From the NCBI GenBank assembly GCA_012719445.1, contig JAAYAH010000010.1, forward strand, positions 1-53,767: a DNA stretch of 53,767 nt, written 5' to 3'. Source of the stretch: Actinomycetales bacterium (GTDB lineage: Bacteria > Actinomycetota > Actinomycetes > Actinomycetales > Kineosporiaceae). The translations under genes were made by a program, and so were the position numbers. This document shows positions 19,734-39,333 of this stretch, piece after piece; position 1 is the stretch's first letter, and every line of letters begins with the position of its first letter. Below the pieces are notes generated by a model. The model had not been told where the DNA came from. It made no database searches and saw only the letters and a list, made by a program, of their open reading frames with translations.

Positions 19734-19771
19734 GCCTCAGCGCAGCACGTCGGCAGCCTCAGCGCAGCACG
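19734..19771. repeat. 16-base direct repeat over the nuoN2 stop codon
   Basis: GCCTCAGCGCAGCACG occurs at 19734-19749 and 19756-19771 (22-base period). The second copy contains the nuoN2 stop, so the last codons of the gene are duplicated in the 3' flank. Probably a slippage product. Confidence 0.6.
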
Positions 19772-21282
19772 CCGGGCAGCACCCCGGCGACGACCTGGGG
19801 CAGCACCGAGAAGGCGACGCAGAGCGCGGCGGCCCCGCCGAGGACCAGTCCCTCCGCCGGGCGCACCCGCCAGGTCACCGGCGCCCCGTCCCCGGCACCG
19901 GGAGCCGCGACGAGCAGGGCTCCCCAGCGCAGGTAGTACAGGACGCCGAGGACGACGTTGACCGCAGCGATCACCGCGATCACCCACACTCCGTTGTCGA
20001 CGAGGGGCCGGACGGCGACGAGCTTGGCGACCAGCCCCATCACCCCCGGCGGCAGCCCGGCGAGACAGGCGAGACCGAAGCCGAGCACCGCGGCCGCGAC
20101 CGGCTCCCTCCTGGCGAGCCCCCGGTAGTCCGCCAGGGTGTGCTCCTCCCCCGCCGGGTGGTGCCGGGCGAGGAGGACGACGACGGTGAACACCGCCAGC
20201 GTCGCGGCGGCGTAGGCGACGAGGTACCCGACGGACGCGGCGACCGCCGTCGGCACCGACGCGGCGTCCACCGCGGCACCGAGCGGGAGCAGCACCCACC
20301 CGGCCTGCGCCACCGTCGACCAGGCGAGCAGCCGGACGGCGACCCGCTGCCGCAGCGCGACGAGGTTGCCGACGGTGACCGTCACCGCGGCGAGCACGGC
20401 GACGACGAGACCCCAGGACCCGGCGAGCGCGGGCAGGCCGAGGGCGAGCAGCACCACGACGGCGGCGAGCCCTGCCGTCTTCGAGACGACGGCGAGGAAG
20501 GCGGCGATGGGCAGCGGCGCACCGGCGTAGGTGTCCGGGGTCCACAGGTGGAACGGCACCGCGGACAGCTTGAAGCCGATGCCGGCGACGCCGAGCACCG
20601 TGCCCAGCCCGGCCACCGCGAGCACGGCTCCCGACAGGTCCGGCCCGGACAGGGCGGTCGCGATCCGGTCCAGGTGCAGCTCGCCGGTGGCGGCGTGGAT
20701 CAGGGCGACGCCCAGCAGCAGCAGGCCGAGGGACGCGACGGCGGTGAGCAGCAGGGTGATCCCGGCCTGCGCCCCCTGGGCGTCCCTGCGGAGGGCGACG
20801 AGCCCGACGGCGGGCAGCGACGCGGTCTCCAGGGCGATGACGAGGGTGGCCAGGTCACGGGCACCGGCGAGGGCCGCGACCCCGGCGACGGCGGAGAGCA
20901 GGAGCACGTGGTGCGGGGTCCTGTCCGCTGCGGCCGGGCCGTCGACGGCGAGCAGCAGGCAGCCGAGGGCGCCGACGACGGCGATCGCCTGCAGGGTCAG
21001 GGTGAGGTCGGACACGACGTAGGAGCACGACGGCAGGACCAGCCCGGCCTCCCCGTCCCCGCCCGGGACGCAGACCGTCGACCGCGCGGCACCGTCGACG
21101 GCGAGCCAGGTCACGGCGGCACCCGCGGCCACGAGTCCGGCGACGGCGAGGGCGTCGTGCACCCGGGCCAGGCGGGCCGCCCGCGGCGCCACGGCGTCCA
21201 CGACGAGCACGAGGACGACGCCGAGGAGCGGGGCGACGACCGGGGCGAGTGCTACCCAGTCGACGGACGGCACGCGCGTCAC
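19759..21282 (-). CDS. nuoN: NADH-quinone oxidoreductase subunit N, second copy
   Basis: 507 residues, a proton-channel subunit with about 14 helices. Landmarks: LVIALETASLPAVGLVALRR (the membrane Glu), GIGFKLSAVPFHLWTPDTYAGAP (Lys and the WTPD loop), VSKTAGLAAVVVLL and RVAVRLLAWSTVAQAGWVL. The start GTG overlaps the nuoM2 stop (GTGA). It differs clearly from the other NuoN at the right edge of the window and is more hydrophobic and Ala-rich. Last gene of the nuo2 locus. Confidence 0.93.
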   Translation of the reverse strand: MTRVPSVDWVALAPVVAPLLGVVLVLVVDAVAPRAARLARVHDALAVAGLVAAGAAVTWLAVDGAARSTVCVPGGDGEAGLVLPSCSYVVSDLTLTLQAIAVVGALGCLLLAVDGPAAADRTPHHVLLLSAVAGVAALAGARDLATLVIALETASLPAVGLVALRRDAQGAQAGITLLLTAVASLGLLLLGVALIHAATGELHLDRIATALSGPDLSGAVLAVAGLGTVLGVAGIGFKLSAVPFHLWTPDTYAGAPLPIAAFLAVVSKTAGLAAVVVLLALGLPALAGSWGLVVAVLAAVTVTVGNLVALRQRVAVRLLAWSTVAQAGWVLLPLGAAVDAASVPTAVAASVGYLVAYAAATLAVFTVVVLLARHHPAGEEHTLADYRGLARREPVAAAVLGFGLACLAGLPPGVMGLVAKLVAVRPLVDNGVWVIAVIAAVNVVLGVLYYLRWGALLVAAPGAGDGAPVTWRVRPAEGLVLGGAAALCVAFSVLPQVVAGVLPGVLR

Positions 21283-22868
21283 GAGAGAACACCTCCGCTG
21301 AGCAGGACCCTGACCGCCGGTCCGGTGACGTCGAGCAGCAGCCACGGCAGCAGCCCGAGGGCGAGGGTGGCCAGCACCAACGGCATGACCACCGCCACCT
21401 CGGATCCGGTGGCGTCCACCTCGGTCGTCGTGGCATGCGTCCCCGGCAGCAGCCGCGGCCCGTGCCAGAGCAGGAACAGCACCCGCAGCAGGTAGGCCGC
21501 AGCGATCACGGTGCCGACGGTCGCCAGCACGGCCAGCGGCCGCGCCAGGCCGGCGAGCGCGTCCTCGCCCCGCCAACTGCCGACCACGGCGAGGATCTCG
21601 CCCCAGAACCCGGCGAGCCCCGGTAGCCCGAGCCCGGCGACGGCACCGAAGGCGAGCAGCCAGCCCAGCCGGGGCAGCCGGTCCCGCAGCCCGGAGCCGA
21701 GGAGGACGAGGTCCGTGGTGTGGTACCGGTCCTTGACCGCCCCGGCGACGAGGAACAGCACCCCGGTGATCAGGCCGTGCGCGATGTTGGCGAACAGCGC
21801 ACCCTGCAGGCCCTGCGGCGTCATCGAGGCGATGCCGAGCAGGACGAACCCCATGTGCGCCACCGAGGAGAACGCGACCAGCCGCTTGAGGTCGCGTTCG
21901 GCGAGACAGGCGAGACCGCCCCAGAGGATGCCGGCGACGCCGAGGGCACCGAGCACCGGCGCGATCTCGCGCATGCCGTCGGGGAGGACGGGCAGGGCCA
22001 GCCGGGCCAGGCCGTAGGTGCCCATCTTCAGCAGCACGCCGGCGAGCAGCACCGAGCCCCCGGTCGGGGCGATGGTGTGCGCGGGGGGCAGCCAGGTGTG
22101 CAGCGGCCACATCGGGGCCTTGACGGCGAGCCCGAGCACGATGAGCACGGCGGCCACCACCTGGACGCCGGTGCTCATCCCGGCACCCGACCGCTCGGTC
22201 AGCTCGACGAGGTCCGTCGTCCCGGTCCGCAACGCGACCAGCAGCAGGCCGAGCAGCATCACCGCCGAGCCGAGGGCGGTGAACAGGATGAACCGGTTGG
22301 CGGCGTCCCGGCGCGCCTCGGGGCCGCCCGGCAGCGTCGCGCCGGAGGCCGTGGACCGCTCGGGCTGGGTGTCGTCGCCCCAGTTCGCGATGACGAACCA
22401 CATCGGCACGAGGACGGTCTCGAAGGCGACGAAGAACAGGATCAGGTCCAGCGCGGTGAAGGTGCCCATCGCGCCGCCCTCCACGGCGAGCACGCAGGCG
22501 GTGAGGCCGCGCCGGGCTGGGGCGGCGTCGGAACGCACCAGGTGCCAGCACACCAGCAGCGCCAGCAGCGCGGTGAGCAGCACCAGCGGGACCGAGATGC
22601 CGTCGAGGCCGAGGTGGAACCGGACGCCGAGGGCCGGGATCCAGCTGCCGTCCACCTCCAGCCCGTACCCCGCCGGGTCGAACGGGGCGGCGGCGAGGGC
22701 GGCGAGCACCGCTCCGACGGCGACGGCGGTGGCCACCACCGCCCCGACGAGGGCGGCCGCCCGGTCGCTCAGGGTCCGCCACGTCAGCAGCAGGACCGCG
22801 GTGGCCAGCGGGACGCCGACGATCACCGGCAGCAGCCAGCCGAGCCCGTCGAGGAGCTCCGCGTTCAC
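21279..22868 (-). CDS. nuoM: NADH-quinone oxidoreductase subunit M, second copy
   Basis: 529 residues. Landmarks: DLILFFVAFETVLVPMWFVI (channel Glu), GLAVKAPMWPLHTWLPPAHT with the conserved Lys, GGSVLLAGVLLKMGTYGLAR and ERDLKRLVAFSSVAHMGFVL. A roughly 20-residue hydrophilic insertion (TQPERSTASGATLPGGPEAR) lies after the second block. The start GTG overlaps the nuoL2 stop (GTGA). It is an antiporter-like proton-pumping subunit of the membrane arm. Confidence 0.95.
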   Translation of the reverse strand: MNAELLDGLGWLLPVIVGVPLATAVLLLTWRTLSDRAAALVGAVVATAVAVGAVLAALAAAPFDPAGYGLEVDGSWIPALGVRFHLGLDGISVPLVLLTALLALLVCWHLVRSDAAPARRGLTACVLAVEGGAMGTFTALDLILFFVAFETVLVPMWFVIANWGDDTQPERSTASGATLPGGPEARRDAANRFILFTALGSAVMLLGLLLVALRTGTTDLVELTERSGAGMSTGVQVVAAVLIVLGLAVKAPMWPLHTWLPPAHTIAPTGGSVLLAGVLLKMGTYGLARLALPVLPDGMREIAPVLGALGVAGILWGGLACLAERDLKRLVAFSSVAHMGFVLLGIASMTPQGLQGALFANIAHGLITGVLFLVAGAVKDRYHTTDLVLLGSGLRDRLPRLGWLLAFGAVAGLGLPGLAGFWGEILAVVGSWRGEDALAGLARPLAVLATVGTVIAAAYLLRVLFLLWHGPRLLPGTHATTTEVDATGSEVAVVMPLVLATLALGLLPWLLLDVTGPAVRVLLSGGVLS

Positions 22869-24769
22869 GACAGCACCACCCCCGCGAGACCGACGAGCGC
22901 CGCACCGGCGAACACCCAGACCAGGTACCCGGTGGCCAGGCCGGTCTGCGCCCGGCGCAGCCGCACCCCGCCCCACCGGGTGAGCACCACGGTGCCCCTG
23001 ACCGCCCCGTCGACGACGTCCCGGTCGGCGGCGGCGACCCGGGCGGCGAGCCGCCGGACCGGCCGGACCACGAGGGCGTCCTGCACGTCGTCCAGGCGGT
23101 ACCCGTCCCGCAGGAACGCCCGTTGGCGCTCGGGGAGGGCGTCGGCGACGTCGAGGAAGCCCCGGCGCGGCGCGTTGAGGGCCCAGCCGATGCCGGCGAG
23201 CGAGAGCAGGGTTCCGATGAGCGCGGTGACCGGGGAGATCTCGACCTCGGCGAGCACCTCGGGCGGGTCCAGCAGGACCAGCCCGACGAGCACGGAGGGG
23301 ATCGCGAGCAGGACGAGGGGGACGCTCATCGCCGCCGGCAGGTGGTGCCCGTGCCCACCGGTGTCGGGGTGCGGGTCCCGGTCGGTCCTGGCGATGCCGA
23401 GGTCCGGGTCCCCTCCGGCGATGACCGCCCAGGCCCTGCCCGCGTACAGGCCGGTGAGCAGGCTGGTGACGAGGCCGGCGACGAGCACCGTCCACGCCGT
23501 CCACCCCCCGCCGTGCAGGGCGGCGTGCTCCGCGGCGCTGAGCACGGCCTCCTTCGACCAGAACCCGCCGAGCGGCGGGATGCCGGCGAGGCTGGCCAGT
23601 CCGACGCCGAGCAGCCCGGCGAGCCACGGCCGGGCCCGCCGCAGCCCCGAGTAGTCGGCCATCAGGGTGCTGCCGCCGACCAGGTGGGCGAGGCAGCCCG
23701 CGATGAGGAACAGCATCGCCTTCCAGGTCGCGTGCGAGAGCAGGTGGAAGACCCCCGGCCCGGCACCGGCGGCGTCGGTCGCCACCGCGACCCCGGCGAG
23801 CATGTAGGCCACCTGGCTGATCGTCGAGTAGGCGAGCAGCCGCTTGAAGTCGTCCTGGGCCACGGCGGCCAGCGCGGCGCCGAGCATGGTCACCGCGGCG
23901 ATGCAGGCCGCGACCCGGAGGGCCACCTCCGCGGCGAGGAACACCGGCAGCAGCCGGGCGACGAGGTAGACGCCCGCAGCCACCATGGTGGCGGCGTGGA
24001 TGAGCGCCGAGACCGGCGACGGGCCCTCCATGGCGTCCGGCAGCCAGGTGTGCAGGGGGAACTGCGCCGACTTGCCGGCGACCCCGGCGAGCAGGAGCAG
24101 GGCGGCCAGGGTCACCGTGCCGCCGCCGAGCTCACCCCGCTCCGCCAGCTCCACCAGCCCGGAGACCGACGTCGTGCCCGCGCCGGTGAGCAGGACGACC
24201 AGGGCGAGCATGACCCCGAGGTCGCCGACCCTGGTCACCAGGAAGGCCTTCACGGCGGCCGCCCGAGCGGCCGGCCGCTCGGAGTGGTGCCCGACGAGCA
24301 GGTAGGAGCTGAGCCCCATCACCTCCCAGCCGATGACCAGCAACAGCAGGTCGTCGGCGTGGACGACGACCATCATCGCCGCCGTGAACATGGAGACGGT
24401 CGCCGCGTAGGGGCGGTACCGGGTCGGTGCCTCCGGCGTGCCCTCGCCGTCCAGGTAGGCCGAGGAGTAGATCTGGACGCAGGCGGCGACCAGGGCGACG
24501 GCGACGGCGACGGTCGCCGACAGGGTGTCCGCCCGCAGGTCGAGGTCGAGGACCGTCACCCCGGTGTCGAGGGTGCCGAGGAACCGCACGGAGTGCACCG
24601 GCCCGTCCCGGAGCACCCCCACCAGTTCGACGACGGCCGCGACCAGGGCACCGGCCGTCCCGGCGACGGCCCAGTCCCTCGCCCAGGACCGGGACCGGCC
24701 GACGACCATCCCGAACGCTGCGGCGGCCGCGGGAAGCAGCACGCACAGCACCGCTGCGGACGAGCTCAC
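22865..24769 (-). CDS. nuoL: NADH-quinone oxidoreductase subunit L, second copy
   Basis: 634 residues. Landmarks: DLLLLVIGWEVMGLSSYLLV (channel Glu), KSAQFPLHTWLPDAMEGPSP and VSALIHAATMVAAGVYLVAR, then the long C-terminal part (about 470-634) that should form the lateral helix and final helix. The start GTG overlaps the nuoK2 stop (GTGA). Length is normal. It carries one of the three antiporter-type proton channels. Confidence 0.95.
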   Translation of the reverse strand: MSSSAAVLCVLLPAAAAAFGMVVGRSRSWARDWAVAGTAGALVAAVVELVGVLRDGPVHSVRFLGTLDTGVTVLDLDLRADTLSATVAVAVALVAACVQIYSSAYLDGEGTPEAPTRYRPYAATVSMFTAAMMVVVHADDLLLLVIGWEVMGLSSYLLVGHHSERPAARAAAVKAFLVTRVGDLGVMLALVVLLTGAGTTSVSGLVELAERGELGGGTVTLAALLLLAGVAGKSAQFPLHTWLPDAMEGPSPVSALIHAATMVAAGVYLVARLLPVFLAAEVALRVAACIAAVTMLGAALAAVAQDDFKRLLAYSTISQVAYMLAGVAVATDAAGAGPGVFHLLSHATWKAMLFLIAGCLAHLVGGSTLMADYSGLRRARPWLAGLLGVGLASLAGIPPLGGFWSKEAVLSAAEHAALHGGGWTAWTVLVAGLVTSLLTGLYAGRAWAVIAGGDPDLGIARTDRDPHPDTGGHGHHLPAAMSVPLVLLAIPSVLVGLVLLDPPEVLAEVEISPVTALIGTLLSLAGIGWALNAPRRGFLDVADALPERQRAFLRDGYRLDDVQDALVVRPVRRLAARVAAADRDVVDGAVRGTVVLTRWGGVRLRRAQTGLATGYLVWVFAGAALVGLAGVVLS

Positions 24770-25248
24770 GGGTGGACCTCCTCGCGGGTGGAGGGGGACG
24801 CCCCGGTGTCGGGGCCGTCCACCGGGCCGGACCCGCCCGTGCCACCGGGCACACCCACGGCACCGAACTCCTCGGTGTACGTGGGCGAGGCCTCACCCAG
24901 CTCCCGGACCTCGGTGAGGTCCGGCGTCGCCCGGTGCCGGAACAGCAGCAGCACGACGGCGAGGGCGAGGCCGATCTCGGCAGCGGCGATCGTGATCACG
25001 AAGATGGTGAGGACCTGGCCGCCGAGCAGGGGGTCGGCGGCACCCTGCCGCGCGCCGGTGGGCGCGGTCAGGGCCAGCAGGCCGCCCCTCGGCATCGCCG
25101 CGACCGTGACCAGCAGCACGTTGACGGCGTTGAGCAGCAACTCGGCACCGATCAGTACGAGGACGGCGTTGCGCCGGGCGAGCAGCCCGTAGACGCCGAG
25201 CCCGGCCAGGGCGGCCGCCAGCAGCACGGGACCGAACAGGTGGATCAC
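24766..25248 (-). CDS. nuoK: NADH-quinone oxidoreductase subunit K, second copy, with C-terminal tail
   Basis: 160 residues. The first about 105 form NuoK: GVYGLLARRNAVLVLIGAEL with the membrane Glu, LLNAVNVLLVTVAA, and LTIFVITIAAAEIGLALAVV with the second Glu. A hydrophilic, acidic tail of about 55 residues (TEVRELGEASPTYTEEFG onward, Gly/Pro-rich) follows, where NuoK normally ends. The start overlaps the upstream hydrolase by GTGA and the stop overlaps nuoL2 by GTGA. Confidence 0.92.
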   Translation of the reverse strand: MIHLFGPVLLAAALAGLGVYGLLARRNAVLVLIGAELLLNAVNVLLVTVAAMPRGGLLALTAPTGARQGAADPLLGGQVLTIFVITIAAAEIGLALAVVLLLFRHRATPDLTEVRELGEASPTYTEEFGAVGVPGGTGGSGPVDGPDTGASPSTREEVHP

Positions 25249-26621
25249 GACGCCTCGCTCGTCAACGGTCGGGGTTCCGGGACGGCTCCGCCCAGTTCGG
25301 CGGCGAGCCGGTCGAGGATCTCCGGTCCGGCGCGACGCAGGCCGTCGTGGTGGTGGGTTCCGTCCTCGACCACGCGCACCGCGCCGGTGGCGGCCGCGGT
25401 GGTCCTGGACAGGGCGGGGTCGACGAACATGTCCTCGGTGTAGACGCAGGCCGCGACGGGGACCCGGTTGGCGCGCAGCCGGTCCCGGTCGTACAGCGGC
25501 TCGGTCCAGGACCGCTCGGCGAGCAGGTGCGCGGCCTCGGCCAGCGGCGCGAGGGCGGGATCCGCGGTGACCGTGTGCGGGTGCACCGTCTCGCCGGTCA
25601 GCGGCAGCCGCTCGACGCCGTCCGGCCCGGGGACCGGCTCGTCGCCGTACCCGAGCCGCTGCCGTACCCGGCGCGCCGACCACCCGGTGACCACGCCGCC
25701 CTCGGCGTAGCAGGCCTCGTGCACCAGGGCGTAGAGCGGGCGGGTCGCGTAGGAGACCGCGTCGGCGACGGTGGCGAGGAAGGTGTCCGAGAGCCGTTGC
25801 CCCGGCAGCGACCAGGCGTCCTCGGCGAGCAGGGCCAGCCGGTCCGGCCCGCCTGCCCCGCCGAGGAGGGCGCCGATCTCGGCCAGCCGCCGTGCCGTCA
25901 GCCGCTCGCCGGTCGGCAGGTGCTCCTCGGTCCGTTCCAGGTGCCGCGCCACCTCGGCGAGGACCACCCGGGCCTGCGGGTGGACGGCGTCCAGGTGCCG
26001 CACCCGGCGCTCGGTGGCAGCGGTGGTCGCGACGTAGACGTCGTCCGGGTGCACGCCGACCGGGGGGACACCGCCGGTGACCAGGGCGGCGTCCAGGCCC
26101 TCCGGCGCGAAGGACAGGTAGGTCCAGGTGCAGAACCCGCCGAAGGACTGCCCCAGCGCGGTCCACGGCCGGTCGCCGAGCAGGTGGCGGCGCAGGCACT
26201 CCGCGTCGGCGACGATCGCGTCGGCGCGGAACCGGGCGAGGTGCTCCGCCTGCCGGGACGGGCTGCCGAGCCGGGCGAGGGTGTGCCGGTCCATCGGCGT
26301 CGACCGGCCGGTCCCGCGCTGGTCGAGGAGCAGCACCCGGTAGCGCGCCAGCGCCCACTCCAGCCAGCCGGGGGCGTCCGCGCCGGGACGGGGTGCCCGT
26401 CCCCCGGGACCGCCCTGGAGGAACACCAGGTAGGGCTGCTCCGACCCGGCGTGGGTCGCGGCACGGACCTCGCGCGCGTACACCGTGATCGTGCCCCGGT
26501 CGGGGGCACCGTGGTCGAGCGGGACCTCGATCCGGTGATCCCCGGTGACGACGTGCCCGCTGGTACCCGGTTCGCCGAACACCCTGACCTCGGCCGGCTC
26601 GACGCCGGTCGGTGATCTCAC
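25245..26621 (-). CDS. Alpha/beta hydrolase, proline iminopeptidase-like, inside the nuo2 operon
   Basis: 458 residues. The oxyanion HGGP-type motif is LVFLQGGPGG (about 66-74), followed by LLLDQRGTGRS and the nucleophile elbow TALGQSFGGF (Ser159); the acid lies near YTEDMFVDP and the catalytic His in EDGTHHHDG near the C-terminus. This is the S33 peptidase-like family (prolyl aminopeptidase or tripeptidyl aminopeptidase type). No signal peptide. The start overlaps the nuoJ2 stop and the stop overlaps the nuoK2 start, both by GTGA, so it is translated together with the complex I subunits. A peptidase in this place is not a known part of complex I. Confidence 0.88.
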   Translation of the reverse strand: MRSPTGVEPAEVRVFGEPGTSGHVVTGDHRIEVPLDHGAPDRGTITVYAREVRAATHAGSEQPYLVFLQGGPGGRAPRPGADAPGWLEWALARYRVLLLDQRGTGRSTPMDRHTLARLGSPSRQAEHLARFRADAIVADAECLRRHLLGDRPWTALGQSFGGFCTWTYLSFAPEGLDAALVTGGVPPVGVHPDDVYVATTAATERRVRHLDAVHPQARVVLAEVARHLERTEEHLPTGERLTARRLAEIGALLGGAGGPDRLALLAEDAWSLPGQRLSDTFLATVADAVSYATRPLYALVHEACYAEGGVVTGWSARRVRQRLGYGDEPVPGPDGVERLPLTGETVHPHTVTADPALAPLAEAAHLLAERSWTEPLYDRDRLRANRVPVAACVYTEDMFVDPALSRTTAAATGAVRVVEDGTHHHDGLRRAGPEILDRLAAELGGAVPEPRPLTSEAS

Positions 26622-27127
26622 CGACCGTCACCCCCGCGGGCGACGGCGAGCGCGGCGACGAGGGCGGCGAGCAGCAGGACCGACAGCAGCTCGAACGGCA
26701 GCAGCCAGCCCCCGAAGACGGCCTCGCCGAGGGCCCTGGCGGACCCCCGGCCGTCGTCGATCTCGACGGTGGTGCCGCCGACCGCCACGAGCAGGGTCCC
26801 GGCGACCAGCCCGGTCACGGCGAGCCCGGCGACGGCCGCTGCGACCCGCTGCCCGCGACCGGCGTCCAGATCGTCCCGGCGCCCGATCGGTGCCCTGGTG
26901 AGCATGAGCGCGAACAGGACCAGGACGACGACGGCACCGACGTAGACGAGCAGCTGCACCAGCGCGACGACCTCGGCCCCGAGGACCAGGTAGACCCCGG
27001 CGAGGCTGCCGAGCATGACCACCAGCCAGAGCGCGGCATGCACGACCTGCCTGCTGGTCACCGCGGCCGCGCCCGCGGCAACGGCGAGCACGGCCAGCGC
27101 CGTGAAGACCATCTCCAGACCGCTCAC
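26618..27127 (-). CDS. nuoJ: NADH-quinone oxidoreductase subunit J, second copy
   Basis: 169 residues with five predicted helices; the conserved centre is [28 protein letters not shown]. The periplasmic loop holds [19 protein letters not shown]. NuoJ lies near the Q-site entrance and links the hydrophilic and membrane arms. The start overlaps nuoI2 (GTGA) and the stop overlaps the hydrolase gene. Confidence 0.92.
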
Positions 27128-27867
27128 TCCGGCAGCTCCCGTCGCCCGGGCGTTCCGCCGGCGGCGTCGGCCTTGCCAGCCTCGGCCGCCCTGCCTGCAT
27201 CAGCCGCCTTACGTGACCCGGCCGCCCTCCCGGTCGTGGCCGCCCTGCCTGCCGTCGCCGTCGCCGTCCTCGCCGCCCGCGCGGCGGCCTTCGCGGCCTG
27301 GGCGATCTCCTTGGGCTCCGGGGCCGCCGGGTCGGGCGGCTGGGGAGGCAGGACCGTCGGCATCCACTGGCCGAGGCGCTCCTTCTCGTGGAGCAGGTCG
27401 TGGAGGTCGAACTCCGCGTACTCGAACTCCGGCGACCAGTGCAGCGCGTCGAAGGGGCACACCTCGACGCAGATCCCGCAGTACATGCACAGCGAGAAGT
27501 CGATGGCGAACCGGTCGAGGACGTTGCGCTGCCTCGCCCGCCCGCCCTCGGTCGTCGGGGGCAGCGTCTCCTTGTGCGCCTCGATGTAGATGCACCAGTC
27601 GGGGCACTCCCGCGCGCACAGCATGCACACCGTGCAGTTCTCCTGCACGAGTGCGATGACGCCGCGGCTGCGCGGGGGGAGCACCGGCCGCACGTCGGGG
27701 TACTCCGCCGTGTGCGCCGGTCGGAGCATGACCTTCGCCGTGGTCACCAGCCCGCGCAGCATCCCGCCGCCGAGGTTCCGACCTCCTGGGTCGTGCACCG
27801 GACCGTGACCGTGCCCGTCGTCGCGGCCTGGTGGGCCACCGGTTGACTGCACCCTCACGACTCGCAT
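27124..27867 (-). CDS. nuoI: NADH-quinone oxidoreductase subunit I, second copy, with Ala/Lys-rich tail
   Basis: 247 residues. Two [4Fe-4S] motifs: [12 protein letters not shown] (Cys78, 81, 84, 88) and [12 protein letters not shown] (Cys127, 130, 133, 137), as in NuoI. The N-terminal about 35 residues are Gly/His-rich. After residue about 175 a basic, Ala-rich tail of about 70 residues follows ([20 protein letters not shown] and so on), histone H1-like in composition and absent from ordinary NuoI. AGGAGAGG precedes the ATG. The gene opens the second half of nuo2 after the three-gene interruption; TAGGGT on the minus strand at 27946-27951 is a possible -10 box for it. Confidence 0.93.
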
Positions 27868-28098
27868 CCTCTCCTGCCGGGCCGGGCGCGGGGGCGCGAC
27901 CCCCCGCCGGAGGCCGAAACGGCCGGTGGTATCGGGCGGCGGACCACCCTATCCGGCGTCTGCCGCGGCACCGATGCTCCCTCGGGTCACCGGTCCTCGC
28001 CCGCCGAGACCCCACCTTCGGAGCCCCTGCTCCCGACGCCGGGCCGCTCCCGGTTCGCCAGGGGCGACGGAACCCGACCGAGCGGCGAGGATGGGCGG

Positions 28099-28992
28099 AT
28101 GAACGACACCAGCGGCACCACGGACCCGCTCGGTCCGCCCGACCCCGCCGGCCCGGACCGAGTGGTCGCCTGGTGCGTCGTCCCGTTCGACGGGCGGCGC
28201 CGCGGCCCGGACGAGCGCGCCGAGATGCTGGCCCGGCTCGGGTTCCGCCGGTTCGCCTACGACTGGCGGGCCGAGCACCTGCCGTCGCTCCCCGCCGAGC
28301 TCGCGGCGCTCGCCCGGGCGGGGATCGCGCTGCACGCGGTGTGGTTCCCACCCCGGCTCGACGCCGACGCCCGGTACCTGCTCGACGTCCTCGCCGACGC
28401 CGGCCTGGCACCGGAGCTGTGGACGACGACGATGTTCGACGGCCCGGAACGCCACGACCCGGCGACCCACGCCCGGCTGGTCGCCGAGCACGTGCGGACG
28501 CTGACCCCGCTGGTGGAGGCGGCGGAGACCCTCGGCGCCCGGGTCGGGCTGTACAACCACCTCGGCTGGTTCGGGGAGCCGGAGCACCAGCTCGAGATCC
28601 TCGACGCGCTCGGCAGCCCCCTGATCGGGATCGTCTACAACCAGCACCACGGTCACGCGCACGTCGACCGGTTCGCGGAGCTGCTCGACGCCGTCCTGCC
28701 GCACCTGCTCTGCGTGACCCTGAACGGGACGACGCGGGACGGCGACCGCACCGGCCGGAAGATCCTCCCGCTGGGGCACGGCGAGCTGGACCGGTCCCTG
28801 TTCGCAGCCCTCGACGCCTCCGGGTACCGCGGACCGCTCGCCCTGCTCGGGCACACCGACGACGACGCGGAGCAGCGGCTCGCCGAGAACCTCGACGGGC
28901 TGCGCTGGCTGCTGGACGGCGCGACCGCGGCCGATCCCGGGCGCGCCCCGGAGCCACGGGTCAGCCGGTGGCGGGCGGAGGGGCTGCTCTGA
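28099..28992 (+). CDS. Sugar phosphate isomerase/epimerase-like TIM-barrel protein
   Basis: 297 residues of the xylose isomerase-like (AP endonuclease 2) type. The repeat of strands and helices is visible, with LHAVWFPPRL, ARVGLYNHLGWFGEPEHQLE (metal-ligand region), IGIVYNQHHGHAH, CVTLNG and RGPLALLGHT. The substrate is not deducible. It is the only plus-strand gene within the nuo2 interval, and its last 32 bases overlap the end of the minus-strand GNAT gene. Confidence 0.8.
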   Translation: MNDTSGTTDPLGPPDPAGPDRVVAWCVVPFDGRRRGPDERAEMLARLGFRRFAYDWRAEHLPSLPAELAALARAGIALHAVWFPPRLDADARYLLDVLADAGLAPELWTTTMFDGPERHDPATHARLVAEHVRTLTPLVEAAETLGARVGLYNHLGWFGEPEHQLEILDALGSPLIGIVYNQHHGHAHVDRFAELLDAVLPHLLCVTLNGTTRDGDRTGRKILPLGHGELDRSLFAALDASGYRGPLALLGHTDDDAEQRLAENLDGLRWLLDGATAADPGRAPEPRVSRWRAEGLL

Positions 28993-29575
28993 CCCCGGCC
29001 GCGGGTGGTGCGGGTACGGCGGGCACGGCCTCGACCGCGGCGGTCGGCACGGCGGCGACCTCCTCGGGGTGCCCCGGCCCGGCGCCGGTGAGGTCCTTCG
29101 CCAGGTGCACGAGCCGATAGCCCCTGCCGCCCACCGGGGTGCGGTGCGTCTCCAGGTACCCGTGCCCGCGGTACAGGGTGAGGTTGCCCAGCGAGCGCTC
29201 TCCGGTGAAGAGCAGGATGCGTCGGGTCCCCGGCGGGACCACGCTCTCGACCGCGAGCAGCAGCCGGGTGCCGAGCCCCCTGCGCTGGAGGTCGGGCACG
29301 ACGACCAGCCGCCCGAGGTGTCCGACGTCGCCGTCGACGCGCACCCGGACCGAGGCGACGAGCCGCCCGGCCGCCCGGAGCCCGACGGCGAGGACGTCGC
29401 CGTCGGCGAGCTCCTCCCGCAGCTCGGCGAGGGTCTGCACGAGCGGGGGCAGGGCGAGGTCGTCGTGCGCGGCCGCCTCGGTGACGTAGGCGGCCCGCTG
29501 GAGGGTCAGCACCTCACCGGCGTCCGCCGGACCGAGCCGCACCAGGTCGAACCGGGTCTCCTCGGGAGCGATCAC
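28961..29575 (-). CDS. GNAT family N-acetyltransferase
   Basis: 204 residues. The acetyl-CoA-binding signature is LGRLVVVPDLQRRGLGTRLL (about 95-114), with LFTGERSLGNLTLYRGHGYLE after it. The C-terminal about 35 residues are Ala/Pro/Val-rich and overlap the convergent TIM-barrel gene by 32 bases. No substrate can be named. It lies 32 bases past the acyltransferase gene on the same strand and could be co-transcribed with it and with nuoABCH. Confidence 0.85.
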   Translation of the reverse strand: MIAPEETRFDLVRLGPADAGEVLTLQRAAYVTEAAAHDDLALPPLVQTLAELREELADGDVLAVGLRAAGRLVASVRVRVDGDVGHLGRLVVVPDLQRRGLGTRLLLAVESVVPPGTRRILLFTGERSLGNLTLYRGHGYLETHRTPVGGRGYRLVHLAKDLTGAGPGHPEEVAAVPTAAVEAVPAVPAPPAAGVRAAPPPATG

Positions 29576-29607
29576 GTCTCGACCCTAGGGCCCGTCGACC
29601 GCCGGGC

Positions 29608-31881
29608 TCAGTGCAGCCCCGCCCGGCCCTCGTCCAGGACCGGGTCCAGCGCCGCGGCGAGCACCGGCTGCAGGCCACGGGCCGCGGCGTCGGTGAGGTG
29701 GTTGCGGTCCCGGTAGAGCATCACCCCGTCCCGCACCGCGGGGCAGGGGTCCTTCGCCCGACCGGGGCACAGGTAGGGGGTGAGGTCGACCAGCCGCACG
29801 TCGGGGTAGGCGTCGGCGACCCGGGTGGCGACCGGGTCCTCCGCCAGCGCCGTCTTCCGGGAGGAGGCGCAGTGCTCCCAGTTCCCGACGGCTCCGGAGA
29901 CGCACACCGGGACGTCGACCTCCATGAACGGGGTGTCCCTGAGGTAGACGAGGGTCGCGCCGCTGGCGGCGAGCCGCTCGTGGACCAGGTCCCAGCCGGT
30001 GACGGCGCTGTCCACGCCGTAGCTCTCCGCGTACTGGCTGAGGCTGCCGATCACGATCAGGTCCGGTCGCTCGCGCTCGATCTCGTCGAGGGCCCAGGAC
30101 CGCCAGTCGTCGCACGCCGCGTAGGGCTGATTGGTCCACGGGTGCCTCGTCTTCATGATCATGGGCGGGCAGGCGGCCTTGCTGAGCACCCGGACCCGAT
30201 AGCCGCGTTCCTCGGCGGTGGTCCGCAGCGGGGTGAACCACTGCTCCGCGTGGGAGTCCCCGAACAGCACCACCCGCCGTCCCTGCGGCGCGTCCCCGAA
30301 CACGCACTCCTCGCTCCGGCGCTGGTCCGGCTGGAGCAGGCAGTCCACCGACTCCGGGCGGTTGACCCGCGCCGCACCCGGTCCCGGGGTCACCGGCCCC
30401 GACTCCCGGTGCGAGACGGGGCCGGTCATGGCGGCCTGCAGCACGGTCTGGGACGGCGCGGGGGCTGCTGCGGCGGCGATGCTCGTCGTCGCGAACCCGC
30501 GCAGTCCCATCCCACCGCCGACCGGGACGAGCATGGCGACGAGGCCGACGGCGAAGCTGAACCGCACCGAGGTCGCCACCCGCGGCGAGAACCGGATCGG
30601 CCCCTCCAACAGTCGCACGGTGAGCTCGGCCGGCACCGCCGACGCCGCGGCGAGAGCCGTCTTCACCGGCCAGGGCAGCGATCCGGCGACCCCCTCGGTG
30701 AGGACGATGACCGGCCAGTGCCACAGGTACCAGGCGTAGGACAGCCGGCCGAGGTGGCGCAGGACCGGGTGGGCGAGCAGGTCACCCACCCGCGGCACGC
30801 CGAGGCCCCGCGACAGCTGGTCCCCGGTCCGGTGGTCCCCGGTCCGGTCGCCGCGGCGCCGCCTGGCGTCGAGACCGGCGAGGATCACCAGGGCCGTGCC
30901 GACGGTCGGGACCAGGGCCGCGGTCCCCGGATAGGGCGTGTCGTCGTCGAAGACCACGGCGGAGACCAGCACGAGCGCGAGACCGACCCACCCGGCCAGG
31001 GCGAGCACCGGTCCGACGCCCCGCCTGGTGCTGGCCGCCCAGACCCGGGCGACCACGACGGCCACCAGCGCGCCGGTACCGAACTGCCAGGCCCGGCTCG
31101 GCGAGGACAGGTACGCCACCGGCTCCGCGGTGCGGGTCAGGTGCAGGCTCAGGGCCAGCGACCCCGCGGTGAGCAACAGGCAGGACCCCGCGACGATCGG
31201 CCCGACCCTGCGCCCGGTGCGCCGGGCCAGCCACGCCGCGAGCAGCACCATCGCCGGCCAGACGAGGTAGAACTGCTCCTCCACGGCCAGGGACCAGTAG
31301 TGCAGCAGCGGACTGTGCTCACGGGCCGAGGCCAGGTAGTCGACCTGACCGTCGACGAACCGCCAGTTGGCGACGTACAGCGCCGAGGAGACGACGTCCC
31401 GGGTGATGTCGAGCAGCCGCAGCGGCGGGAGCAGCAGGGCCGCGGCGAGACCGGTCACCACGAGGACGAGGCCTGCGGCGGGGAGGATCCGCCGGGCCCG
31501 GCGGGCGTAGAAGTCGCCGAGTCGCACCGTCCCGCTGCGCCGCACCTCGGCGAGCAGCAGCCCGGTGATCAGGAAGCCGGAGACGACGAAGAACACGTCC
31601 ACCCCGACGTACCCGCCGGTGACCAGGGGGATCCCGGAGTGGAAGGCCAGCACGGCCAGCACGGCCACGGCCCGCAGGCCCTCGACGTCCGCGCGGAACC
31701 GCGGTGGCCGGTCGGCCGATCGCTGCGAGGGGACGGACGACCGTTGCGACGGGGTGGACGACTGGTGCGAGGGGACGGACGACTGGTGCGACGGGGCGGA
31801 CGAGGGGTCACGGGACCCGCCGGGACCGGGAACCGGTGCGGCCGCAGCGGCCGGGACGGTCTCGTGGATCTCGGAGGTCAC
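29608..31881 (-). CDS. OafA/YrhL-type acyltransferase with C-terminal SGNH domain
   Basis: About 757 residues. N-terminal cytosolic region with four 7-residue repeats (SSAPSHQ-type), then the acyltransferase-3 membrane domain beginning RADVEGLRAVAVLAVLAFHS and containing VGVDVFFVVSGFLITG and HYWSLAVEEQFYLVWP. After about 10 helices comes a periplasmic SGNH domain with RRVVLFGDSHAEQW (nucleophile Ser) and a C-terminal DRNHLTDAAA block with the His. The family O-acetylates cell-surface glycans. The GTG at 31881 with AGAAGG upstream gives VTSEIHETVP and is preferred. It follows nuoH2 on the same strand by 115 bases. Confidence 0.9.
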   Translation of the reverse strand: MTSEIHETVPAAAAAPVPGPGGSRDPSSAPSHQSSVPSHQSSTPSQRSSVPSQRSADRPPRFRADVEGLRAVAVLAVLAFHSGIPLVTGGYVGVDVFFVVSGFLITGLLLAEVRRSGTVRLGDFYARRARRILPAAGLVLVVTGLAAALLLPPLRLLDITRDVVSSALYVANWRFVDGQVDYLASAREHSPLLHYWSLAVEEQFYLVWPAMVLLAAWLARRTGRRVGPIVAGSCLLLTAGSLALSLHLTRTAEPVAYLSSPSRAWQFGTGALVAVVVARVWAASTRRGVGPVLALAGWVGLALVLVSAVVFDDDTPYPGTAALVPTVGTALVILAGLDARRRRGDRTGDHRTGDQLSRGLGVPRVGDLLAHPVLRHLGRLSYAWYLWHWPVIVLTEGVAGSLPWPVKTALAAASAVPAELTVRLLEGPIRFSPRVATSVRFSFAVGLVAMLVPVGGGMGLRGFATTSIAAAAAPAPSQTVLQAAMTGPVSHRESGPVTPGPGAARVNRPESVDCLLQPDQRRSEECVFGDAPQGRRVVLFGDSHAEQWFTPLRTTAEERGYRVRVLSKAACPPMIMKTRHPWTNQPYAACDDWRSWALDEIERERPDLIVIGSLSQYAESYGVDSAVTGWDLVHERLAASGATLVYLRDTPFMEVDVPVCVSGAVGNWEHCASSRKTALAEDPVATRVADAYPDVRLVDLTPYLCPGRAKDPCPAVRDGVMLYRDRNHLTDAAARGLQPVLAAALDPVLDEGRAGLH
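31720..31803. repeat. 21-base repeats coding for SSxPSxx heptads
   Basis: Four in-frame heptads, SSAPSHQ, SSVPSHQ, SSTPSQR and SSVPSQR, in the N-terminus of the acyltransferase (about residues 27-54 from the GTG start). A variable, probably disordered segment. Confidence 0.7.
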
Positions 31882-31996
31882 GAACAACCCTTCTCCGGCG
31901 ACTGGCCCGCTCCGTCGGGCGACGAAGTCGTCGACCGTAGTGCCTGGGTGACCGGGTCGCAAGGTGGGGTGGTGGGGCGGCGCCCCCGCCGATCCC

Positions 31997-32968
31997 CTAC
32001 CGGAGGACCACGACCACCGAGGTGATCACGAGCTGGAGCAGCGCGACGGGGACGAGGACGACCCAGGCGAACCGCTGCAGCTGGTCCTCCCGCAGCCGGG
32101 GCCAGGACACCCGGATCCAGATGATCACGAACGCGAGCAGACCGATCTTGACAAGGGTCCACAGCGGCCCGAGCTGGTCGGAGAACGGCCCTCGCCACCC
32201 GCCGAGGAACAGCACCGAGGTCATGCCCGACAGCAGCACCATGCCCGCGTACTCCACGAACAGGAACAGCGCGAACCGCAGCCCGCCGTACTCGGTGTAC
32301 GGGCCGACGACGAGCTCCGTGTCCGCGATGGGCATGTCGAACGGCGAGCGCTGGATCTCGGCCAGCCCGGCCGCGAAGAAGACGAACGCCGCCGGGGCCT
32401 GCCAGAGCAGCCACCACGGCTGCCACGCGTCGACGATCGCGGTCAGCGACAGCGAGCCCGCGGCCATCGCGACGCTGCCCGCGGCCAGCACCACGGGTAC
32501 CTCGTAGGACAGCAGCTGCGCCGCCGAGCGCATGGCGCCGAGCAGGGAGTACTTGCTGGCGCTGGCCCAGCCGGCCATCAGGGTCCCGACGATCCCGACG
32601 GCCGAGGCGGCGAGCACGAACAGCAGGCTCGCCTCGGCGTCCGCGGCCACGATCGTGGCCGACAGCGGGATCACCGACATGGCGACCATGTACGGCACCA
32701 GGGAGACGGCGGGGGCGATCCGGTACACCCACCGGTCGGCCGCGGCCGGGATCACCTCCTCCTTCTGGACGAACTTCACCGCGTCCGCGACGAGCTGCGC
32801 CCAGCCGTGGTAGCCGCCGGCGTACATCGGGCCCATCCGGCCCTGCATGTGCGCCATCGCCTTGTGCTCGAGCTGGCCGACCACGAGCGGACTCACCAGG
32901 AAGACGACGATCACCGCGAGGACCCGGATCGTGACGGACCCGGCGGTGGTGTCCAGCAGCTCAGGCAT
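31997..32968 (-). CDS. nuoH: NADH-quinone oxidoreductase subunit H, second copy
   Basis: 323 residues. Landmarks: VGQLEHKAMAHMQGRMGPMY, then ADAVKFVQKEEVIPAAADRW (Q-site region with conserved acids), GWASASKYSLLGAMRSAAQ, SYEVP and AEIQRSPFDMPIADTELVVG with EYGG. All key acidic residues of the NuoH Q-chamber that I can recognise are present. The ATG at 32968 overlaps the nuoC2 stop by eight bases. Confidence 0.95.
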   Translation of the reverse strand: MPELLDTTAGSVTIRVLAVIVVFLVSPLVVGQLEHKAMAHMQGRMGPMYAGGYHGWAQLVADAVKFVQKEEVIPAAADRWVYRIAPAVSLVPYMVAMSVIPLSATIVAADAEASLLFVLAASAVGIVGTLMAGWASASKYSLLGAMRSAAQLLSYEVPVVLAAGSVAMAAGSLSLTAIVDAWQPWWLLWQAPAAFVFFAAGLAEIQRSPFDMPIADTELVVGPYTEYGGLRFALFLFVEYAGMVLLSGMTSVLFLGGWRGPFSDQLGPLWTLVKIGLLAFVIIWIRVSWPRLREDQLQRFAWVVLVPVALLQLVITSVVVVLR

Positions 32969-33731
32969 CGGTGTCCCGCCCCCCGGTGTCGTCCCCGTCC
33001 CGCACGCCGGACGACTCACCCGGTTCGACCGGCTCACCCGGGTCGACCGGGTCGGCGGAGGGCTGCGGTCTCGGCCCCCACGACGGGTCCGGCACCCCCG
33101 GCGGCTGGACCTTGCGGCGGGCCGGCGCGCCGTGCTGGTCGGACTCCCCCGGTTCCTTGGCCCCCGGCCACGGCTTGACCACCCGGGAGGCCAGCACGAA
33201 CGACTTGCGCAGCGGCGTCCCCTGGAACCCCTCGGGGAGCAGCAGCGGCCGCAGCCCGAGCCCGGCCGGGTCGATGAAGTCCCGGAACTCGAGCCCGAAC
33301 ATCTCGAACGTCTCCCGCTCGTGCCAGGCGGCCCCCGGCCACACGGCGGTGAGGCTGGGCAGCGAGCCCTCGGCGTCGGGCACCCGGGTGCGCAGCAGCA
33401 CCCGGCGGATCCGGCGGCCGCGGTCGGCCGGATCCATGACGTCGGAGTGCCCGTCGGGTGCGGGTGTCGCGGCCACGTGGAGGACGACCTCGAGCGCCGG
33501 TTCCTCGGCGTCGGGGAGGTCGACGGCGGACAGCCAGTCGAAGAAGTCCAGGTGCAGCACGTCGCGGACGTGGGTGGCCGCGAGCAGCCAGGAGCTCGCG
33601 GGGACGTCGAGGCAGGGCACGCCGTCGCCGTCGGTCGAGGCCACGACCTCGACGCCGAGTGCGGCCGACATGCCGCTCGCGATGGCCTCGGCGATGTCCG
33701 CCGGGCTGCCTGAGGTCCAGAGAACGGTCAC
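32961..33731 (-). CDS. nuoC: NADH-quinone oxidoreductase subunit C, second copy, with acidic/Pro-rich tail
   Basis: About 256 residues. The NuoC signature is present: [40 protein letters not shown]. It is not fused to NuoD. After about residue 195 a low-complexity tail follows (Pro, Gly, Asp and Glu-rich). The GTG at 33731 is chosen because it overlaps the nuoB2 stop by GTGA, the junction type used through this operon; upstream GTGs at 33743 and 33746 are alternatives. Confidence 0.88.
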
Positions 33732-35293
33732 CGTCGCTGCCACCACCGTCGACGCTCGGGAAGGATGGTCTGTGGACCGTCGGCGACGCCGAGGCCCTGC
33801 TGCTGCTCGGCCGGGTCGGGGCCGACGCCGGGGAGCAGCCGCCCCGTGAGGGGGACGCCGTGGTCGTCGGGGGCCTCGTCCTGGCGGGAGGGCGTTCCCA
33901 CGAACGGGTCACCGGTCCCACCGGGCACCGGTCCCGACAGCCGCAGGACCTCCGGCCAGGAGCTGCCGGGCGGCAGCGGGTCGAGCTCGGTGCCGCCGGA
34001 GGAGCCCGCCGAGGACCGACCGGGGTCGAAGCCCTGGTTGGCGAGGGACGCGATCTCCTCGATGGACTCGATGATCCTGGTCGGGGGGAGGCCGCCGAAC
34101 CCGGCGGGCGCCGCGACCGGGCTCCCGCCCCGCGACTCCCCCGGGGCGACCTCGTCCGCGCCGGCGGGTTGCCCATCGCCGGTGGAGTCCGGGGCGACGG
34201 CCGGGGGACCGCCGGGGGCCGGCAGCCCCCTGGAGCACCGCGGCCTGGGGTCGGCCAGCACCGCCTGCGCGATCCACTCGGGAGTCACGGTCCTGGGGAC
34301 TCTCGGGTGAGGCTCGTACCGTGCCCGCTCGACGACGCCCTGCACGTCCGGCGACACCGGGTCGGCCTCGGCGACGGCCGGAGCCGGGTCCGCCTCCGCG
34401 ATGACCGGAGCCGGGTCGGACACTGCGGCCACCGGAGCCGGCTCCGGCTCGGCGACCACCCGCACCGGATCGACCGCCGTCGCGACGGCGGCGGAGCGGC
34501 TGAGGGCCCGCTTGCGCCGCTCGGCCAGCCTGCGCCGCTGCTGTCTCGTGTTCGGCCGCGACGGTGTCCCGGGGGCCGGGGCGAGGACGAGCGATGCGGG
34601 TTCCGGGGAAACGGTCGTGCCCGCGTCCGCCTCCGCATCGCCGACGGGCTCCGCCGCGGCCGCGCCCCGCCCCGGGCTCCGGCGGGGTGCCCGCCGTCCC
34701 CTGTTCGGCGGGGACACCAGGGCGCGGGTCGCCGTCGCGGCGGTCACCCGCCGGCCGGGCCCGGTGTACCGGTGACCGAGGTTCTCGCCGGCGATCTTCT
34801 CCTGGAGCTTGAGGATGCCCTGGAGCAGCGCCTCCGGACGGGGCGGGCAGCCGGGGACGTAGACGTCGACGGGGAGGATCTGGTCGACGCCCTTCGTGAC
34901 GCAGTAGGAGTCCCAGTAGGGGCCGCCGGAGTTGGCGCAGGACCCGAAGGAGATCACGTACTTCGGCTCGGGCATCTGCTCCCACAGCCGGCGCACCGCG
35001 GGAGCCATCTTGTCGGTGACCGTGCCCGAGATGATCATGAGGTCGGCCTGGCGCGGCCCGTGGGCGAACGGGATGACGCCGAACCGGATGAAGTCGTGCC
35101 GGGCCATGCTGGCGGAGATGAACTCGATGGCGCAGCAGGCCAGACCGAAGTTGAAGACCCAGAGGCTGTAACGCCTGCCCCAGTTGAGGACGACCCGCAG
35201 CGGTCGCGGGGCGAGGGCGGTGACCCCGCCGACCGTCGGCGTCGGCAGCCGGACCGGTGCCGGTGCGGGGTGCTCGGGCTGTCGGCCGGTCAT
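33728..35293 (-). CDS. nuoB: NADH-quinone oxidoreductase subunit B, second copy, with a ~340-residue C-terminal extension
   Basis: 521 residues, against about 160-230 for ordinary NuoB. Residues about 25-185 are a complete Nuo[11 protein letters not shown] (Cys53, 54), [14 protein letters not shown] (Cys119) and [12 protein letters not shown] (Cys149), the four ligands of the N2 cluster. The rest (about 185-521) is low-complexity, with a basic patch ([20 protein letters not shown]), repeated ADPAP and EADP blocks, and [20 protein letters not shown] near the end. I see no known domain there. The ATG at 35293 has GAGGGACGG upstream. Its stop overlaps nuoC2. Confidence 0.92.
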
Positions 35294-35381
35294 CCGTCCC
35301 TCGTGTCCTCCGTCGTCGGGGCCGTCACCGTGAGGCCCGTGGGATCCGCCGCCGTCGTGCCCGGTGTCGGGCGAGCGCCGG

Positions 35382-35741
35382 TCACGTCCATCGCAGCGCC
35401 AGCCGGCGCCAGGCGTGCAGCAGGCCGAGCGCCAGGACCCCGAGGAAGACACCCATCTCCGCCAGGGTCGCCCAGCCGAAGGCCTCGACGACGGTCGCCC
35501 ACGGGAACAGGTAGACGGCGTCGACGGCGAACACGACGTAGAGGAAGGTGTACAGGTAGTACCGCACCTGGGTCTGCGCCCACCCGTGCCCGACCGGGTC
35601 GACCCCGCTCTCGTAGGTGGTGAGCTTCTCCCGCGTGATCGCCTGCGGCCGTAGCAGACGGTTGGCCAGCATGGCGACCGCGAAGAACAGGACCCCGCCG
35701 GCCACGGTCGCGGCCACCACGACGTACGGATGCGGTGTCAC
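35382..35741 (-). CDS. nuoA: NADH-quinone oxidoreductase subunit A, second copy
   Basis: 119 residues with three helices and the conserved loop [20 protein letters not shown] then [23 protein letters not shown]. The ESG motif and the acid in [11 protein letters not shown] are intact. First gene of nuo2; it stands 88 bases before nuoB2. The region upstream, shared with the divergent SGNH gene, must hold its promoter, but no clear boxes were found. Confidence 0.93.
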
Positions 35742-38931: not shown

Positions 38932-39333
38932 GCAGGCGAACCCCGGGGCCGTCCGGCAGGCACGCCCCTCGGCCGTGACGATCACCAGAGCGTTACGCTG
39001 CGGAGTTGGGGATTTACGCTACGTGAGTAGCCTGCATCCTCAGGTGGTGACCTTGCTGACACCGGCCGCACACTGATCGCAACCAGGGGTTCCACCAGGA
39101 CCTTTCGGCCCTGGCACGCCGTTACCGCATCGAGACAATCATCGGGAACATGTCCGTGGCCCGCTCGGGTTGGCCTCCCGGAGACTTCTACGATGTCGTG
39201 GACTCCATGACGGAGGTGGGCCGCAGAAGCAGCCCGGCACGGTGTGCGGCCCGACGACGCGTCCTCACCTTCAGCCGAGCACCGTCTCGCCGCCCCGACG
39301 GGGCGGCATGAGTGACAGGACTTGCGGGGACGC
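38932..39333. other. Gap of about 400 bases upstream of korA
   Basis: No supported gene on either strand. Its left part contains the candidate korA control region (listed separately); the rest, including 39060-39330, shows nothing I can interpret. Confidence 0.5.
38993..39033 (+). promoter_or_regulatory. Candidate korA control region with paired TTACGCT sites
   Basis: TTACGCT occurs at 38993-38999 and 39014-39020, 21 bases (two helical turns) apart, each followed by RCG. TTGGGG (39006-39011) and TAGCCT (39028-39033), 16 bases apart, resemble a promoter overlapping the second site. The leader would be about 290 bases, which is long. Confidence 0.35.

Follow-up and report, generated by a model that had tools for sequence, protein, structure and literature searches.

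A prolyl-aminopeptidase-like hydrolase gene between nuoJ2 and nuoK2 of an actinobacterial nuo2 cluster: probably a translationally coupled passenger

Inserts in complex I operons are known from Paracoccus and Rhodobacter; they serve as background here and not as evidence, and a literature search on such inserts returned nothing usable. Likewise, a second nuo cluster was not the subject of any title or abstract opening among the matches listed, and the search yielded no paper naming nuoJ2 and nuoK2 together. With respect to gene spacing, PMC10666635 describes short overlaps as the commonest spacing of prokaryotic genes and as enriched among subunits of complexes, and reports that, across six gene pairs tested, a spacing of about 20 nt left almost no coupling. 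With respect to prolyl aminopeptidases, PMC9147577 describes a multimeric type (S33.008) that occurs in bacteria, fungi and plants, and a Serratia enzyme in which the amino group of proline is bound by Glu204 and Glu232. Here we consider a hydrolase gene embedded in a nuo2 cluster. Our preferred reading, to which we assign a probability of roughly 0.78, is that of a prolyl-aminopeptidase-type passenger enzyme whose gene was inserted a single time between nuoJ2 and nuoK2 in the ancestor of the family, is translationally coupled to its neighbors, was lost at least twice, and does not act on the complex.

The window, i.e. the whole stretch of DNA that was analyzed, comprises 53,767 nucleotides of an Actinomycetales bacterium (contig JAAYAH010000010.1); the genome it stems from is referred to as the source genome. 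The minus strand of the window harbors nuoA2, nuoB2, nuoC2, nuoH2, 4.1 kb of other genes, nuoI2, nuoJ2, the hydrolase gene, nuoK2, nuoL2, nuoM2, nuoN2 and htpX. The features referred to below are:

19759..21282, minus strand: nuoN2; putative start at a GTG sharing 4 bases with the nuoM2 stop
21279..22868, minus strand: nuoM2; 4-base overlap with nuoL2
22865..24769, minus strand: nuoL2; 4-base overlap with nuoK2
24766..25248, minus strand: nuoK2, 160 aa (Pfam); its start shares 4 bases with the hydrolase stop
25245..25248, minus strand: 4-base overlap of hydrolase and nuoK2, kept in all four genomes with the gene at this place
25245..26621, minus strand: hydrolase, 458 aa, GTG start, prolyl-aminopeptidase-like alpha/beta hydrolase (Pfam, homology to a solved chain, alignment)
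26618..26621, minus strand: 4-base overlap of nuoJ2 and hydrolase, kept in the same four genomes
26618..27127, minus strand: nuoJ2, 169 aa (Pfam); its stop shares 4 bases with the hydrolase start
27124..27867, minus strand: nuoI2, ferredoxin-type 4Fe-4S subunit; 4-base overlap with nuoJ2
28099-28992, plus strand: AP_endonuc_2-like TIM barrel, in the nuoH2-nuoI2 interval
28961-29575, minus strand: GNAT gene, in the nuoH2-nuoI2 interval
29608-31962, minus strand: AT3-SGNH acyltransferase, in the nuoH2-nuoI2 interval
31997..33037, minus strand: nuoH2; 4.1 kb of unrelated genes lie between it and nuoI2

The products of the two flanking genes match Oxidored_q3 (nuoJ2, E 1.7e-33) and Oxidored_q2 (nuoK2, E 4.1e-20) of Pfam. 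The first-pass annotation had placed the hydrolase between them with a four-base overlap on each side, and its coordinates and strand proved exact. We note that the open frame by itself is weak proof of a gene, because the DNA has 73% GC and long frames run on both strands across this stretch (621 aa on the minus and 422 aa on the plus strand). A spurious frame is ruled out by homology, namely by the Pfam match, the solved chain 8jgn_A, and the copies in three relatives, which are 64-71% identical.

The hydrolase scores 57.5 bits against PF00561 Abhydrolase_1 (curated cut-off 25.8, E 2e-15) and hence belongs to the alpha/beta hydrolase superfamily. It had been described as S33-type with a full catalytic triad. 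The triad is confirmed: the motif and the alignment to 8jgn assign it to S159, D397 and H425, and all 36 aligned sequences (the source genome and 35 loci; of seven named loci, L064 was omitted) have these three residues, with the nucleophile in a GxSxG elbow. The term S33-type is reasonable but loose, the score against the Pfam S33 model Hydrolase_4 being 22.8 bits and thus below the cut-off of 27. Three proline iminopeptidase models of NCBIfam score 20-30 bits versus cut-offs of 168-500 and none is passed; the protein therefore falls outside the short proline iminopeptidases (TIGR01249, 30.1 versus 259.75 bits; TIGR01250, 24.7 versus 167.65 bits). The closest solved chain is 8jgn_A (AT3g61540), which matches with E 7e-88 from residues 27-448 of the query to 16-446 of the chain (8jgm, E 7e-87). 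Two glutamates, E302 and E344, are likewise invariant in all 36 sequences and may be equivalent to Glu204 and Glu232 of the Serratia enzyme, although the profile alignment with the short enzyme failed over the C-terminal half. The predicted structure has a mean pLDDT of 43.3, too low for fold comparison. The long class of prolyl aminopeptidases presumably spans about 430-460 aa, a range that fits the hydrolase; by homology and by this length it is a predicted peptidase of S33.008-like long type rather than a proven member. Judged from the homology and the invariant triad, its substrate, location and activity would be those of a working cytoplasmic peptidase that removes N-terminal proline by means of Ser, Asp and His.

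Within the window, the gene pairs I2-J2, K2-L2 and L2-M2 also overlap by four bases. In 12 retrieved regions lacking the embedded gene, nuoJ2 and nuoK2 overlap by four bases in 10 cases and by one base in G016, while G005 has a gap of 91 bases; gene starts in this comparison were chosen by script as the start codon closest to the expected place. The four-base link is a habit of the nuo2 operon to which the insert conforms. The double overlap is therefore unremarkable here, as four-base overlaps are the rule of this operon even where nuoJ2 and nuoK2 are adjacent. According to our preferred reading, the hydrolase gene would be transcribed together with nuoI2 to nuoN2 and translated by termination-reinitiation: ribosomes that end nuoJ2 would restart on the hydrolase GTG, and those that end the hydrolase would restart on nuoK2. 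Selection would keep the overlaps because the membrane subunits presumably need matched output.

The family sample consists of 13 genomes, 12 of which harbor nuoJ2. The hydrolase is found between nuoJ2 and nuoK2 in four genomes from three genera, namely the source genome (g1), G001 (g2), and G004 and G007 (g5); both overlaps are exactly four bases in each, and the copies are 62-70% identical between genera. Eight of the 13 genomes possess the nuo2 cluster without the embedded gene: G005 (g6), G003 (g4) and six genomes of g3, with nuoJ2 and nuoK2 in direct four-base overlap in G003 and all six g3 genomes. The gene is thus present at the same place in some relatives and absent from others, most of which have an uninterrupted nuoJ2-nuoK2 pair; it does not occur wherever the complex is encoded (8 of 12 family genomes with nuoJ2 lack it at this position), and the order and class samples described below are alike. 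The remaining family genome, G009 (88% complete), has neither a nuo2-type J nor a hydrolase and is uninformative. All six g3 genomes encode a 40-42% identical enzyme elsewhere, which forms a separate branch of the tree, as well as an additional enzyme of the short type that passes the TIGR01249 cut-off. The four carriers yielded no match to TIGR01249 at E 1e-15, and the embedded gene appears to be their only candidate of its kind at the thresholds used (TIGR01249 profile, E 1e-15); the source genome has one further weak hydrolase match (E 2e-4 over 109 residues). The enzyme itself may be kept by selection because it is the carriers' only recognizable one of its kind. G003 and G005 have no hydrolase match at E 1e-20 and no TIGR01249 enzyme.

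The gap in G005 (L072:5225-5323) contains a frame of 32 codons that is opened by a GTG sharing four bases with the nuoJ2 stop, and whose own stop shares four bases with the nuoK2 start. Within this frame, GDGGAPSLPPTGEMIYP can be aligned with GEDGVARLPLTGEMVYP, an internal stretch of the hydrolase of G007 and G004 around the invariant E344. Compared with G007 and with G004, none of 2000 shuffles reaches the protein or the DNA score; compared with the source genome, 10 of 2000 protein and 2 of 2000 DNA shuffles match the score, and compared with G001 2 and 4 of 2000, respectively. The score summed over the source genome, G001 and G007 is 147, versus 126 for the best of the 2558 further windows of 32 residues taken from this locus; taken singly, the G007 score is reached by none of these windows, that of the source genome by five and that of G001 by two. 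Against the profile, the frame scores weakly (0.9 bits, E 0.0088), and 1 of 2000 shuffles, 766 of which were given a score, did as well. We consider it probable rather than certain that the frame is a relic of the hydrolase after internal deletions. A hydrolase remnant was also considered in the long nuoJ2 tail of G003 and dropped; this tail is read as Pro/Ala-rich.

Trees were computed for six cluster proteins (operon tree) and for the hydrolase, with supports computed on unrooted trees. In the operon tree the family forms one clade (support 100), G001 groups with G005 (86), g5 joins g4 and g3 (94), and g4 joins g3 (80); the source genome joins G001 and G005 with a support of 53, a weak placement. 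In the hydrolase tree, the copies of the carriers form one clade (100) and the source genome joins g5 (85), a placement mildly at odds with the operon tree. Because the carrier G001 pairs with the non-carrier G005 and the carriers of g5 join the non-carriers of g4 and g3, two losses have to be assumed for any position of the source genome. A history in which the junction received the gene independently at least twice, or in which the genera exchanged this operon segment horizontally, would agree with the operon tree, where the carriers are not monophyletic, and with the differing partners of the source genome in the two trees. Such a history is quite unlikely, since the hydrolases of the carriers form a single clade, the support for either of the conflicting placements is weak, and the remnant in G005 points to loss. 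A single insertion before the family split, followed by losses in G005 and in the ancestor of g3 and g4, fits best; the complex genes would have been retained through each of these losses. The weak placement of the source genome, the tree conflict and the weak profile score in G005 weigh against this history.

Divergence of the hydrolase keeps step with that of its neighbors: between the source genome and G007, identity is 70% for the hydrolase, 75% for nuoJ2, 68% for nuoK2 and 67% for nuoL2. For the hydrolase, the pair G004/G007 gives a dN/dS of 0.14 and more distant pairs give 0.39-0.46; these substitution rates indicate purifying selection. Given the triad and dN/dS, a pseudogene was dropped from consideration. 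The earlier impression of more than accidental proximity is borne out insofar as the arrangement is not an accident of one genome, with the same junction and both overlaps in four genomes, one hydrolase clade and purifying selection.

Beyond the family, a sample of the order (297 genomes) contains the hydrolase family in 174 genomes (E 1e-40) and the nuo2-type J in 37 (E 1e-25), with both in 11 and adjacency only in the four carriers; 163 of the 174 genomes with the enzyme family have no nuo2-type J at E 1e-25. A sample of the class (296 genomes) contains the hydrolase family in 69 and the nuo2-type J in 72 genomes, with both in 32 and adjacency only in the source genome. In 8 of the other 31 class co-occurrences the two genes share a contig at a distance of 2.4-5.1 Mb, and in 23 they are located on different contigs; for 10 of these 23 the nuoJ2 locus was read and contains no hydrolase, while in the others a contig end could conceivably fall between the genes. 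Direct reading of class loci (16 of the 72 genomes with nuoJ2) found nuoK2 after nuoJ2 and no hydrolase in 16 of 16, among them L099 with a nuoJ2-nuoK2 interval of 419 bases. Throughout both samples, no hydrolase copy beyond the four carriers was placed beside nuoJ2. The enzyme family and the nuo2-type J occur together less often than by chance in the order (11 versus 21.7 expected, p 3e-4) and more often in the class (32 versus 16.8 expected, Fisher p 4e-6), both figures being confounded by ancestry.

These distributions bear on the first-pass suggestion that the enzyme may work in assembly or processing of the complex, possibly of its tails. As an assembly or maturation factor, the peptidase would trim or quality-control a Nuo2 subunit, for example at a Met-Pro N-terminus, and would be coupled for co-production with its substrate. 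Consistent with such a role are the conserved junction and double overlap in all four carriers, the enrichment of short overlaps among complex subunits cited above, a possible internal Met-Pro start in the translation of NuoH2, and the class-level co-occurrence above chance. We nevertheless regard it as very unlikely, because eight genomes of the family encode the cluster but not the gene (one of them retaining the putative 32-codon remnant only), the enzyme family is common where the nuo2-type J was not found, and the 16 class loci uniformly lack the hydrolase. The suggestion thus fails on the close relatives that keep the cluster without the gene, a comparison of gene content and not of complex activity. 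In addition, an N-terminal exopeptidase would be an odd tool for C-terminal tails. A narrower version, in which this lineage recruited the embedded peptidase specifically for maturing or turning over Nuo2, at a fixed ratio to nuoJ2 and nuoK2 through the double translational coupling, and in which losing lineages bypassed the need, is highly improbable.

Other parts of the cluster are interrupted as well. At 27868-31996 of the window it is split by 4.1 kb, and the intervals of relatives at the same place differ in size. The H2-I2 interval spans 1.1-8.5 kb in seven family genomes besides the source genome (both matches on the retrieved stretch and on one strand). Outside the family, it measures 42-136 bases in four genomes. 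G008 and G012 carry A2-B2-C2 on the strand opposite to I2-N2. Given these inserts and strand switches, breaks in the nuo2 cluster are not rare in the family.

Several further observations concern the composition of the cluster. The nuoB2 gene (33728-35452, minus strand) encodes a Pro/Ala-rich tail of about 310 residues after the conserved domain, and NuoB2 of 11 relatives has 207-269 aa. With respect to nuoD (loci G000:C184:25473-26231 and G005:C11:7827-8585), nuoC2 and nuoH2 are direct neighbors in the cluster and no nuoD separates them. Eleven of the 13 family genomes have a second nuoD-like match (E about 1e-43 to 1e-50) outside the cluster, perhaps the missing subunit; in G006 it lies about 109 kb away from nuoJ2. 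Canonical nuoD- and nuoJ-like genes are located on contig C182, and a Proton_antipo_M protein at the right edge of the contig (52566-53735, minus strand) may mark where the canonical nuo operon ends. No NuoE, NuoF or NuoG gene was recognized in the nuo2 cluster.

Genes for the alpha and beta subunits of a 2-oxoacid:ferredoxin oxidoreductase, presumably of KorA/KorB type, lie near the cluster at 39322-42293 (plus strand), and korA also adjoins it in G006, G027 and G034. A Kor-type oxidoreductase is a possible ferredoxin source for the Nuo2 complex. This neighborhood makes a metabolic module a reasonable rival: proline freed by the hydrolase would be oxidized to glutamate and 2-oxoglutarate, and from the latter the KorAB-type enzyme would reduce ferredoxin for Nuo2, with co-expression and no contact between hydrolase and complex. 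The status of the hydrolase as the only candidate of its kind in the source genome agrees with the module. We consider it unlikely, as G006, G027 and G034 have the korA-nuo2 neighborhood but no insert, and as we infer both the Kor name and the feeding of Nuo2 by ferredoxin.

The passenger reading is supported by an enzyme family that is common without the nuo2-type J, and by a nuo2 cluster that takes inserts elsewhere too. Against it stand the long retention in three genera with exact coupling, which is not required of a pure passenger, and the above-chance co-occurrence of enzyme and nuo2-type J in the class sample. The locus provides a small, clear case of a soluble enzyme gene that would reside inside a respiratory operon without membership in the complex. 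In G005 both four-base overlaps persist in the remnant although the gene is nearly gone, which suggests that selection at this junction protects the translational link between nuoJ2 and nuoK2. Tight coupling alone is a poor guide to function.

Compared with known systems, the hydrolase most closely resembles AT3g61540 (PDB 8jgn, 8jgm), which, going by the gene name, we take to be a plant protein from Arabidopsis: the match is nearly full-length and brings the triad residues and both invariant glutamates into register. We know of no link between AT3g61540 and complex I, and the literature search gave no paper on the activity of this protein among the matches listed. Prolyl aminopeptidase 2 (MEROPS S33.008, multimeric long type) is likened to the hydrolase by length and by its occurrence as given in PMC9147577, a likeness drawn from descriptions of the type. 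The short proline iminopeptidases (S33.001, TIGR01249; e.g. 1azw) share the GGPG, DQRGxG and GxSxG motifs; 1azw_A matches only partially (E 1e-4), the profile also matches the g3 enzymes, and the hydrolase is about 150 residues longer than the TIGR01249 model. With the second actinobacterial Nuo cluster (A2-B2-C2-H2-I2-J2-K2-L2-M2-N2-htpX) of its relatives the locus agrees in gene order and four-base overlaps; it differs from this cluster, in the source genome as in G001, G004 and G007, by the hydrolase between nuoJ2 and nuoK2.
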